IMG/VR virus record: IMGVR_UViG_3300042305_000692
Location: 1-30,633 of that record
Length of the DNA: 30,633 nucleotides
Source of the DNA: a virus
Direction: 5' to 3' (one strand)
A model generated the notes under the pieces. It had not been told where the DNA came from, did not search any database, and worked only from the letters and a program-made list of their open reading frames with translations. Of this stretch, positions 22,325-29,474 are shown piece by piece (position 1 is the stretch's first letter; the number at the start of each line of letters is the position of its first letter). A program made the translations under genes and the position numbers.

Positions 22325-24637
22325 CTATCTGCGGCGTCTCACCGCGTATGGGTCTCGCGCAACCCCGCCGTGTTGCTCGGCAAGCTCACGCATTTCATCG
22401 TTATAACGATCTTGCTCCGTTGTCACCCTCAAAAACGCCGACAGGAGTAGCGTCGTTTCGTCATAGCAGTTGTGGGTTACCAATCCGCCCTCAATCGTGA
22501 ATACCGGGACCGTCTCCACCCGAAGGTTGTACACGTTTGCGACGCCGTATGGCGTGATACTCTGGATTGAGACGGCGGAAGTTTTCACGTTGGCATACGC
22601 TTGAGCAGATGCGCGATCGACGTTGCTTCGCCATGAAGCCCGCACCGCAGATTTTGCATACATTGGCAAATCTAGCAGGAAGCGCGCCGTTTGCTTTGCC
22701 GCGTTCCGAATGCCATTTGCGGCCTTCTTCACTGCCATGCCAAGCGCGAGCAGCTTTTTGGGCAGCCTTGATCGCTCGGTCAAGGTGCTTTCTTCGCTCC
22801 GGCTCCCGCATGTGGCGCGACAAGTGTTCTGAGCCGTGGACAAGCTCAAGATTGGAGATGTCGTTGTTGCTTCTGTCCCCGTCCTTATGGTGGACGTGGT
22901 ATCCTTTCGGAATAACCCCGTGATAATGCTGCCAAACCATGCGGTGAAGTCGCTTGCCACGGCGCTGCCAATACTTGCCGCAAAGCCAATACGCTTCACC
23001 ATTGAAATACTGTGCGGACATGAGGAAACCTCCTGTTCCACCAGCATATCATTCAAAGTCAATTCGTCAATGGTTAGCCACCCACGATGAGTAAGCATTC
23101 TATGGCTAGGCGTGGCGATGATTGTCCGGCCTTCAGCCTGAACCATCCAAACTTCTTGGTGTGTTCCTGTCATACCGCAAGCAAGAACCTTGGCGTACCC
23201 AAGCGGGGTGACGACATGGCATCCAGGTATCAGGTATTCAATCGGAACAGGCCCGCGCTCTAACGTGTCAACAAGCGTGCCGGCCGCAAAGCAATGGTCC
23301 TCCTGCGTCCTGGTCGCCGGCCCCTTGTCGGGTTCCATCGTGTCTAGCACAAGGCCAGGCACCGTTCTCCAGAAATGTCGGCAGTTGGCCGTCACATAGA
23401 ACATCGGGACCGTTTTGCCATCGTCCGACCGCTCGCCAACCAGCCGATTGACAATCTCGGTGTAGTTTGCCTTCCGATCGCGCCTGCCTTGCTTGAGGAT
23501 GATCCGTCCATTGGTCGCAACGCGCATGTTCTGCTGCGGACTCGGCCCATCCTGGCTCGCCCACATCTGCGGGTCAGCAATCCGCAAATCAATCGGCGGC
23601 AGTTCCATTTCCTGTTCCAGTTTGAGAATTTCGCGGGCAACCTCCCCCGACGACATGCGGCACCCCGTGTCCGCCTCTCCAGACCAGCCGTACCACTCGG
23701 CAAACCGTATGACCGCCCCCTTTGGCAGATGAACCTCCGGGAACCCGTTCTTTGCTGCCAGCACGGCGCCTTCGCTTATCGTGTACCACCCCACCGAAAA
23801 TGGCTTGGCTGTCCCCCAGTCCATAGCCATGACGTGCGTCCAATGTCTCGGTGGCTTGAAGTGCCGTACCATATGCTTCCCGCGCTCAAGCATCGAGAGT
23901 GCGGCTCCAGCCACCACATCCCAGTCGCCGTCCCGGAGTGCCTTGGCCCGTTCGGCTGACAAGGCGGTAAAGGTTCCCTCATAGTTCTCCACATCCAGGT
24001 AAGGGTTATCGTCCATCCGGGCCGGGATGTAGACGCTCTTCCACCCCTTGCTCCGCTTGGTCGATGTCGTCCGGTCATAGAACACGTGCATCGGCGGCGC
24101 CTGCTCGATGAACACCTCGCGCAGAAAGTTATGCGCCGGGCCTCCAGGGTTGCTGCCAATGACAATCCTGGGAAACATATCCTGCTGCGTCGGCTGCCAC
24201 CGGCCAAGCCGCACTCGGGTCCGCAAGAACTTCAACTGATCCGGCAGGAACAACGCCCCCTCGTCCACCCCCAACCAGTGCATCTCCGCGCCCTGGTACT
24301 TGAAGATGTCCGCTTGGTCCTCGGCAAAACAGAACTGAAGGAAACTGTCGTTGTAAAACGTCAGCTTCCGATCCGTCTCCTTCCACGTCGCCACCTCGGG
24401 CGGAATCGCCATCTGCTGGATCGGAATCAGATGGTTGTCCTTCAACTCCGGATACGTCCTGCGAAACAGGTATGCCTGCAAGCCAGGGTTCTCCAGGCAG
24501 GCAATCAAGCCATCCATCCTGAGCGCGTGGCTCTTCCCGCCCCCAGCCGCCCCGCCATACATCACCTGCCTGGCGCGAACGGCATGCAGGACAGACTGCT
24601 TAGCGTTTGGCTGGTAATTGAGCGACCACTTCGGCAT
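22325..24637 (-). CDS. terL: Terminase large subunit precursor with embedded intein, 770 aa (495 aa after splicing)
   Basis: This is the packaging motor with an ATPase and a nuclease domain. Walker A 'GGAAGGGKS' is at residues 28-36, Walker B 'LGVDEG' at 122-127, and the coupling segment 'GSNPGG' at about 161-166. The RNase H-like nuclease acidic residues are in 'AMDWG' (D273) and 'IADPQMW' (D355), and a third site 'EDH/CYDE' is split by the intein after H448. The intein covers residues 449-723, and the last 47 residues (from C724) are the C-terminal extein. Spliced length (495 aa) is normal for phage large terminases. Terminase is inactive or impaired unless the intein is removed, since the third nuclease motif is interrupted. 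It overlaps the small terminase gene by 38 bases. Confidence 0.9.
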   Translation of the reverse strand: MPKWSLNYQPNAKQSVLHAVRARQVMYGGAAGGGKSHALRMDGLIACLENPGLQAYLFRRTYPELKDNHLIPIQQMAIPPEVATWKETDRKLTFYNDSFLQFCFAEDQADIFKYQGAEMHWLGVDEGALFLPDQLKFLRTRVRLGRWQPTQQDMFPRIVIGSNPGGPAHNFLREVFIEQAPPMHVFYDRTTSTKRSKGWKSVYIPARMDDNPYLDVENYEGTFTALSAERAKALRDGDWDVVAGAALSMLERGKHMVRHFKPPRHWTHVMAMDWGTAKPFSVGWYTISEGAVLAAKNGFPEVHLPKGAVIRFAEWYGWSGEADTGCRMSSGEVAREILKLEQEMELPPIDLRIADPQMWASQDGPSPQQNMRVATNGRIILKQGRRDRKANYTEIVNRLVGERSDDGKTVPMFYVTANCRHFWRTVPGLVLDTMEPDKGPATRTQEDHCFAAGTLVDTLERGPVPIEYLIPGCHVVTPLGYAKVLACGMTGTHQEVWMVQAEGRTIIATPSHRMLTHRGWLTIDELTLNDMLVEQEVSSCPHSISMVKRIGFAASIGSAVASDFTAWFGSIITGLFRKDTTSTIRTGTEATTTSPILSLSTAQNTCRATCGSRSEESTLTERSRLPKKLLALGMAVKKAANGIRNAAKQTARFLLDLPMYAKSAVRASWRSNVDRASAQAYANVKTSAVSIQSITPYGVANVYNLRVETVPVFTIEGGLVTHNCYDETTLLLSAFLRVTTEQDRYNDEMRELAEQHGGVARDPYAVRRRR
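22469..23293 (-). mobile_element. Intein inserted in the terminase nuclease motif, 275 aa
   Basis: Block A begins 'CFAAGTLVDT' (C1). Block B is 'GRTIIATPSHRML' (residues 55-67) with the T-x-x-H catalytic pair (T61, H64). The C-terminal blocks are 'VYNLRVETVPVFTIEGG' and 'LVTHN', ending in H274-N275, followed by Cys as the +1 nucleophile. All residues needed for standard (class 1) splicing are present. Only about 91 N-terminal and 36 C-terminal residues form the splicing domain; the 148 or so residues between are unlike any endonuclease domain in this frame. That DNA instead carries an HNH gene in a different frame. The insertion lies exactly in a conserved acidic motif, as is usual for inteins. 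Confidence 0.92.
22491..23021 (-). CDS. HNH homing endonuclease nested in the intein in another reading frame, 176 aa
   Basis: The protein opens with a 'YFNGEAYWLCGKYWQRRGKRLHRMVWQHYHGVIPKGYHVHHKDGDRSNNDISNLELVHG' region (residues 5-63, quoted in outline: H26, H44-H45, N53, N57). This is the HNH_3-type domain of phage homing endonucleases. A second Zn-binding unit follows (C122-x2-C125 and C139-x3-C143). It has its own start at 23021, with AGGAGG seven bases upstream, inside the intein DNA but in another frame from the terminase-intein reading. The gene stops 22 bases before the intein's end, so its last codons overlap the C-terminal splicing block. It probably drives homing of the element into intein-less terminase genes. 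Confidence 0.9.
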   Translation of the reverse strand: MSAQYFNGEAYWLCGKYWQRRGKRLHRMVWQHYHGVIPKGYHVHHKDGDRSNNDISNLELVHGSEHLSRHMREPERRKHLDRAIKAAQKAARAWHGSEEGRKWHSERGKANGALPARFANVCKICGAGFMAKQRRSRICSSVCQRENFRRLNPEYHAIRRRKRVQPSGGDGPGIHD

Positions 24638-28486: not shown

Positions 28487-28788
28487 GCCGGCACCCCGAA
28501 ACAGAGGCTATCAGGGCGATTACGCGCCTGGTGGCCGAGGTCACGGGGGTGGAGGTGGCCGATATCCTCGGCCCCTCCCGATCCCGCCCTGTAACCGCTG
28601 CCCGCGCGCTTGCCGCTGCGCTTTGCGTGGATCTAGTACGAGGGGCGACTACGACGACGATCGCCCACGCTCTGGGTGGCAGGCATCACTCGTTTGCGGT
28701 CAGGGCGGCTCAGGCTGCGAGCGGGACGGCCAAGTATGCCGCCTTGAAGGCAATGGCAATCAAACTTGAGGAGGTACGCGCATTATGA
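28483..28788 (+). CDS. Stand-alone DnaA domain IV-like DNA-binding protein, 101 aa
   Basis: Residues about 15-82 match the C-terminal DNA-binding domain of DnaA. 'VAEVTGVEVADILGPSRSRPVTAARALAAAL' (in parts) corresponds to the 'V...Y.I...DL...RRSR.V..PRQ.AM.L' segment. 'TTTTIAHALGGRHHSFAVRA' corresponds to the signature 'IG..FGGRDHTTV.HA' that contacts the DnaA box. The AAA+ ATPase and N-terminal domains are absent. It could bind DnaA boxes at a phage origin or block host initiation. Translation is coupled to both neighbours by four-base overlaps. Confidence 0.8.
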   Translation: MSRHPETEAIRAITRLVAEVTGVEVADILGPSRSRPVTAARALAAALCVDLVRGATTTTIAHALGGRHHSFAVRAAQAASGTAKYAALKAMAIKLEEVRAL

Positions 28789-29474
28789 TTACGACCCTGA
28801 ACAAGATCCGCAGCCACAAACCCTGCCGAGAGGGATGGGAGAAATTGCTGCGCCATTTGGTCAAAACCGCAGCCGACGACGAGCCGCTGGCAATCGCTAC
28901 GGTTCTCGACAGCAACGGGCTTGATGACGCGCTCTGGTGCCTGCGCGCGGTCGAAGGCCGAGATCGAGAGATCCGACTCTATGCTGTGTGGGCCGCGCGG
29001 CAGGTGCAGCACCTGATGACCGACCCCCGCAGTTTCACGGCTCTCGATGTCGCAGAGGAATATGCCCGAGGCCGCGCAAGCACTGCCAAGCTGACGGAGG
29101 CGGCGTGGACGGCGTGGTCGGCGACGGCGGCGTGGGCGGCATCGGAGGCGGCGAGGGCGGCGGAGGCGGCGTGGGCGGCGGCGGCGGCGTCGAGCGCGGT
29201 GGCGGCGTCGGCGGCGGAGGCGGCGAGGGCGGCGGTGGCGGCGGTGGCGGCGTCGGCGGCGGAGGCGGCGTGGGTGGCGGAGGCGGCGTGGGTGGCGGAG
29301 GCGGCGTCGGCGGCGGCGGCGGCGGCGGCGGAGGCGGCGGCGTGGGAAACGCGAACGGCGGCATATATTTCTTCGCGCGACGCCGCGAGAGCCGCGCAAG
29401 CCGACGAATTGCGCCGGATCTGCCAGGAGATCGAGGCTGGGCGAGACCCTTATCCGGAGGAGGATGGACGATGA
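28785..29474 (+). CDS. Conserved phage protein with Ala-rich repeat, 229 aa
   Basis: The N-terminal 95 residues ('MITTLNKIRSHKPCREGWEK', 'DDEPLAIATVLDSNGLDDALWCLRAV', 'REIRLYAVWAARQVQHLMTD' in parts) belong to a type common in phages and plasmids, which I recall as resembling an 'immunity-like' helical domain of unknown use. Residues about 104-190 are almost only Ala with periodic Trp, Glu and Arg, encoded by GCG/GGC-type trinucleotide runs. A normal helical C-terminus follows ('AAQADELRRICQEIEAGRDP'). The repeat is prone to slippage and may vary in length. The toxin-immunity link is a recollection, not shown here. Confidence 0.65.
   Translation: MITTLNKIRSHKPCREGWEKLLRHLVKTAADDEPLAIATVLDSNGLDDALWCLRAVEGRDREIRLYAVWAARQVQHLMTDPRSFTALDVAEEYARGRASTAKLTEAAWTAWSATAAWAASEAARAAEAAWAAAAASSAVAASAAEAARAAVAAVAASAAEAAWVAEAAWVAEAASAAAAAAAEAAAWETRTAAYISSRDAARAAQADELRRICQEIEAGRDPYPEEDGR
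29096..29345. repeat. GC-rich trinucleotide-type repeat tract
   Basis: The tract is made of GCG/GGC/GTG triplets, with an 18-bp tandem repeat (GCGTGGGTGGCGGAGGCG, twice) near 29268-29303. All frames read low-complexity sequence: Ala/Trp/Glu in the true frame, Gly/Val in another, and Pro- or Arg-rich on the minus strand. Confidence 0.8.

Follow-up and report, generated by a model that had tools for sequence, protein, structure and literature searches.

An HNH endonuclease gene nested out of frame within a terminase intein: a probable mobile element with relatives that grade into split inteins

We analyzed a virus contig of 30,633 bases from IMG/VR (record IMGVR_UViG_3300042305_000692, at its full length; hereafter the window) and found, within the gene for the terminase large subunit (TerL), an intein whose middle part also encodes an HNH endonuclease in a second reading frame. 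The insert is very probably a mobile TerL mini-intein in which an HNH homing endonuclease gene, translated independently, overprints the linker. Comparison with relatives showed that both open frames are conserved, that the Hint splicing domain and the HNH domain are intact, and that an exact empty insertion site exists. One DNA segment would thus yield two proteins from two frames, with the nuclease being made without waiting for splicing.

The intein and the nested nuclease frame

The features of the element and its host gene are as follows (aa, amino acids; ORF, open reading frame; pLDDT, predicted local distance difference test).

22325..24637, minus strand: terL precursor ORF, 770 aa, consisting of N-extein, intein, and C-extein (from the ORF list; PHROG terminase large subunit, E=8e-34)
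23294..24637, minus strand: N-extein, 448 aa, last residues TRTQEDH (junction set by the exact empty alleles of contigs L156-L158)
22469..23293, minus strand: intein, 275 aa, from Cys1 to the terminal Asn, followed by Cys+1 (TerL residues 449-723)
23024..23293, minus strand: N-terminal splicing half, intein residues 1-90 (pLDDT block means 90-98; C1 and H64 invariant)
22583..23023, minus strand: overprinted intein linker, residues 91-237 in the intein frame, mostly disordered by prediction (pLDDT block means 32-63)
22469..22582, minus strand: C-terminal splicing half, residues 238-275, with blocks F and G (C-intein profile E=6e-9; pLDDT block means 92-98 for residues 241-275)
22325..22468, minus strand: C-extein from Cys+1 (CYDETTLL...), including the stop (junction set by the empty alleles)
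22491..23021, minus strand: HNH_3/Cys4 endonuclease ORF, 176 aa (HNH_3 E=3.8e-17 over residues 24-66; pLDDT 91)
23029..23034, minus strand: Shine-Dalgarno (SD) sequence AGGAGG, 7 bases 5' of the ATG at 23021 (read from the sequence; anti-SD duplex -11.0 kcal/mol)
22986..23060, minus strand: possible hairpin around the SD sequence and start codon (-24.1 kcal/mol, z -2.6, computed for the window only)

The intein motifs are intact, with the start C1FAAGTLV, block B TPSH (T61/H64), the C-terminal VTHN (N275), and C+1, while C1 and H64 were invariant across relatives. Pfam intein/Hint matches were weak (E of 2e-6 and 1.5e-4, under the curated cut-offs); a profile of the relatives' inteins matched solved inteins with E down to 1e-20, and a Foldseek search with the AlphaFold model of the intein matched the Ssp DnaB, DnaE, and RecA inteins (E down to 4e-6). 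In that model, the Hint halves were ordered (block means 90-98) and the overprinted middle was disordered (32-63). The insert has the residues of a class 1 intein, the Hint fold, and a precise in-frame position, and it is predicted to splice. A group I intron carrying an HNH ORF was considered as well and rejected, as neither a group I intron nor any other Rfam family was matched in the window and the host frame is open.

The HNH ORF lies entirely within the intein, in its +2 (= -1) frame, and stops 22 nt short of the intein end. A preliminary description of this DNA had proposed a complete HNH_3 endonuclease with a Cys4 unit at 22491-23021, wholly inside the terminase intein in a shifted frame and with its own AGGAGG seven bases before the ATG; all of this was borne out, with the AGGAGG located at 23034..23029. 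In a 38-sequence alignment, residues Y17, H26, H44, H45, N57, and H66 were invariant, as were C122, C125, and C139 of the zinc-ligand-like cysteines, with C143 conserved in >=90% of sequences. The AlphaFold model of the protein was ordered, and the homing enzyme I-HmuI was the nearest and sole solved sequence relative found for it. Foldseek with this model returned no match under E=0.001, the top hit again being I-HmuI (E=0.37, probability 0.95). Judged by its motif and zinc-ligand cysteines, the protein is a putative HNH_3 homing endonuclease. The hairpin over the SD sequence and ATG could, if the modeled structure forms, act as a control that couples HNH initiation to TerL translation.

Empty alleles and the proposed homing

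Contigs L156-L158 were 98.2% identical to the window over 4.5 kb and identical to each other there, yet they lack exactly the 825-bp intein, with the 90 bp around the site being identical to the window. These empty alleles encode a joined TerL of 495 aa, and the 5-7 kb around their terL contained neither an HNH nor an intein belonging to this family. On sequence grounds, the exact empty site shows a recent gain or loss of the intein, which is consistent with homing. The flanks contained 0 mismatches in 212 nt around the site versus 3.8 expected (P=0.02); we dropped a co-conversion tract as an interpretation, since this P value is too weak to claim one.

Our proposed mechanism is as follows. 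Translation of the TerL frame would give the precursor, in which the Hint halves would fold together around the disordered linker and splice TerL. Ribosomes would also start at the ATG at 23021 inside the intein and produce a free HNH protein, which would cleave TerL alleles that lack the intein, close to the insertion point, upon which repair would copy the whole element into the cut allele.

An alternative role for the HNH protein is that of a terminase packaging cofactor, akin to HNH proteins encoded beside phage terminases, rather than a homing enzyme. Freestanding relatives often adjoin terminase genes, and a passage of PMC10448857 cites a report for HK97 that terminase-adjacent HNH proteins can act in packaging. 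The almost identical contigs L156-L158 show no HNH of this family in the 5-7 kb around their empty terL, however, and its position varies between phages, lying inside the intein here, while the nearest solved sequence is I-HmuI. We therefore consider a packaging role very improbable.

Some observations weigh against a mobile intein with an independently translated nuclease. The residue at +1 is Cys in L156-L158, but Val, Ile, or Leu in the other close intein-free relatives (L159-L171), so that a recent loss of the intein is possible; this Cys is either pre-existing or a trace of such a loss. Strict conservation of the SD sequence was not found, since it is weak or absent in many relatives, with many AT-rich ones having none, and the SD comparison among relatives is inflated by picking the best of several starts. 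Finally, at the single locus, the intein phase stayed open in 36% of synonymous shuffles of the HNH codons (P=0.36). As the window locus alone is not significant, we built the case on relatives.

Recurrence and selection across relatives

Relatives were collected by their HNH protein only, blind to frame, from IMG/VR, GTDB genomes, and phage records. A first search of IMG/VR gave 64 relatives, and a second scan of it confirmed 336 loci, the best 80 of 336 being kept. Within the resulting set of 107 distinct HNH sequences, we searched around each with profiles of both intein halves and classed loci by the intein halves alone, the half profiles themselves having been built from nested loci. Both halves flanked the HNH in one frame at 88 distinct loci, and at 84 of these the intein frame was open through the HNH, versus 8.4 expected; because related loci are not independent, the nominal P of ~1e-149 is only a guide. 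In the remaining 4/88, the halves lie in separate ORFs, and at none of the 88 was the HNH in frame with its intein. The open loci comprised 81 in the window's phase, whose third frame contained 1747 stops, and 3 in the other. These 3 (L082, L085, and L128), with the HNH in the +1 phase, form a single tree group near the window branch. The nested layout also occurs in the records of the isolate phages TJE1 and Highwayman. Most insertion points lie at like TerL motifs (such as EDH/C.D or NH/C.DA.RY), no more than a few residues apart, and the sampled host ORFs matched several terminase families. As a side observation, the TerL ORF at L003:2167-5745 has matches to LAGLIDADG/Hom_end families as well, near residues 284-362, and these suggest that it holds another intein, whose endonuclease would be in frame.

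The preliminary description had named a sequencing frameshift as a finding that would overturn it, which the same nesting in 84 distinct loci excludes. More broadly, indels or an assembly error could have shifted the HNH of a classical in-frame intein into another frame, leaving it as a decaying gene or an artefact. Such an event might explain the first origin of the arrangement, and L045 does look frame-disrupted: the two intein halves on either side of its HNH are not in the same frame, owing to a frameshift from mutation or assembly error. As an account of the window it is almost certainly wrong, given the recurrence of the nesting across these loci and in the isolate records, the amino-acid conservation of the HNH, and the fact that no in-frame relative was found.

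We examined selection on 8 near-identical pairs, some of which have a sequence in common. Amino-acid changes in the intein frame were strongly depleted in the splicing halves (0.34 of the expectation for N-int and 0.09 for C-int), indicating strong purifying selection. Within the overlap, HNH-silent changes that alter the intein occurred at 2.6 times the expectation, and HNH-altering changes were depleted to 0.43-0.74 of it. Hence, the HNH is the conserved protein in the overlap, with the intein frame there mainly avoiding stops. The AlphaFold disorder of the overprinted middle agrees with this part of the intein frame being a stop-free linker, and comparison with relatives shows that it is kept mainly as such.

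These constraints bear on whether the insert splices. TerL is generally needed by tailed phages, and the insertion point breaks its nuclease motif. A non-splicing insert that TerL tolerates, along the lines suggested for the insert in the ShiLan methylase, has a precedent in that ShiLan elements persist without a splicing domain (PMC11855218), but it is highly improbable here in view of the broken motif, the intact Cys1, block B His, terminal Asn, and Cys+1, and the purifying selection on the relatives' splicing halves.

Across loci, the HNH frame is closed by an upstream in-frame stop inside the intein, at a median of 239 nt past Cys1, so that an internal start (or a frameshift) is required for the HNH. 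The HNH ORF ends within intein block F or close to it, its stop falling within the Tyr/Phe-Asp/Asn codons of the block in 36/81 loci. One could suppose that the HNH is produced as part of a TerL-IntN-HNH fusion, through programmed -1 frameshifting by the ribosome, with its own start unused; the -1 frame holds the HNH in 81/84 nested loci, and the weak SD sequences of many relatives would fit. Yet canonical slippery heptamers were in phase in only 4/87 loci and not in the window, the upstream stop closes the HNH frame, and an ATG or GTG precedes the conserved HNH domain in 82/85 loci, with a strong SD sequence in the window. Nesting in the +1 phase also exists, and split relatives have a standalone HNH gene, all of which renders frameshifting very unlikely. 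Two separate proteins from one segment, as the preliminary description had it, remains the best reading, as the HNH frame with its upstream stop cannot be an in-frame intein domain.

Split relatives and known systems

Where the intein frame is not open, the halves would form a split intein from separate ORFs, with the HNH gene between them. The terL of the window is a single 770-aa ORF, whereas separate ORFs for TerL-IntN, HNH, and IntC-TerL were found in L004, L012, L016, L071, L074, and Lactobacillus phage CL2. In L071 and L074, the HNH and IntC ORFs meet at an ATGA-type junction. In phage CL2 (L153, KR905067.1, 447-2763), the annotated large terminase ends in the N-intein, the HNH gene comes next, and an ORF unannotated in the record holds the C-intein and the TerL C-terminus, a natural split intein. 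In Vibrio phage 1.238.A (L214, NC_055735.1, 260-3991), the TerL intein is split, an unannotated HNH separating gp11 from gp12 (the 'hint domain protein'), and there is a further N-intein-like match near the gp11 start (518-760). Brochothrix phage BL3 (L215, NC_015254.1, 709-2604) encodes the split halves in gp02 and gp03, and all that is left of the HNH between them is a C-terminal relic. In PAE1, SN1, FBPa53, Poludnitsa, EauM-23, Shemara, and BP10, the HNH is freestanding, adjoining terminase genes or close to them, and this intein is absent.

The tree mixes nested, split, and freestanding forms, with 6 split changes, at least 4 of them forced by well-supported branches, and at least 5 freestanding changes forced likewise; this tree was built quickly and many of its forks are weakly supported, and gain and loss between nested and split forms are not distinguishable in it. 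Judged from these sequences, the nested layout is widespread, with a gradation into split inteins, which goes beyond the preliminary description. Because the nuclease gene already starts and stops between the Hint halves, one stop in the linker and a start before IntC would suffice for a three-cistron split intein. The stages might run from nested (the window) to split with HNH (L074, L071, CL2, and 1.238.A) to split with an HNH relic (BL3). We tentatively suggest, with slightly less than even confidence, that overprinted HNH inteins are a widespread type of element from which natural split inteins have arisen repeatedly.

In the textbook view, an intein unites splicing and endonuclease domains in a single polypeptide. 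Like canonical endonuclease-bearing inteins, the element has Hint halves with intact catalytic residues and endonuclease sequence in the usual place between them. An in-frame endonuclease domain is, however, absent from this intein: the nuclease lies in another frame with its own start and stop, and would hence be a separate protein. In 2009, Dassa et al. reportedly described fractured genes, in which a free endonuclease gene lies between the two parts of a split intein. This layout of a separate nuclease gene recurs in the close relatives L004, L071, L074, and CL2, whereas in the window both halves still belong to a single polypeptide, whose frame runs through the nuclease gene. HNH-bearing group I introns of the I-HmuI type similarly carry a nuclease gene, translated on its own, inside a self-splicing element, but the splicing element in the window is a protein, and its frame must therefore stay open through the nuclease gene.

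The ShiLan and Pacc40 phage methylases carry published out-of-frame HNH insertions that lack a splicing domain (PMC11855218). ShiLan shares with the window an out-of-frame HNH in an insert through which the host frame stays open, as well as a patchy distribution, but it has a GTG start and no detectable ribosome-binding site (PMC11855218), while the window has intact Hint halves in the host frame and lies in TerL. Out-of-frame HNH insertion has a published precedent here, from which the splicing domain sets the element apart. Our literature search found no out-of-frame endonuclease inside an intein; the preprint 10.1101/2025.01.02.630785, outside that search, may report one, as its title names a non-canonical intein architecture and the ShiLan paper (PMC11855218) cites it for overlapping frames.

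The element bears on how free nucleases join with inteins and on the origin of natural split inteins. The relatives also amount to a large natural collection of sequences that code in two frames, and phages TJE1, Highwayman, CL2, and 1.238.A offer starting points at the bench. Natural split inteins are widely used in biotechnology. Elsewhere in the window, a 229-aa ORF at 28785..29474 on the plus strand matches PHROG 18326 (E=1e-42).
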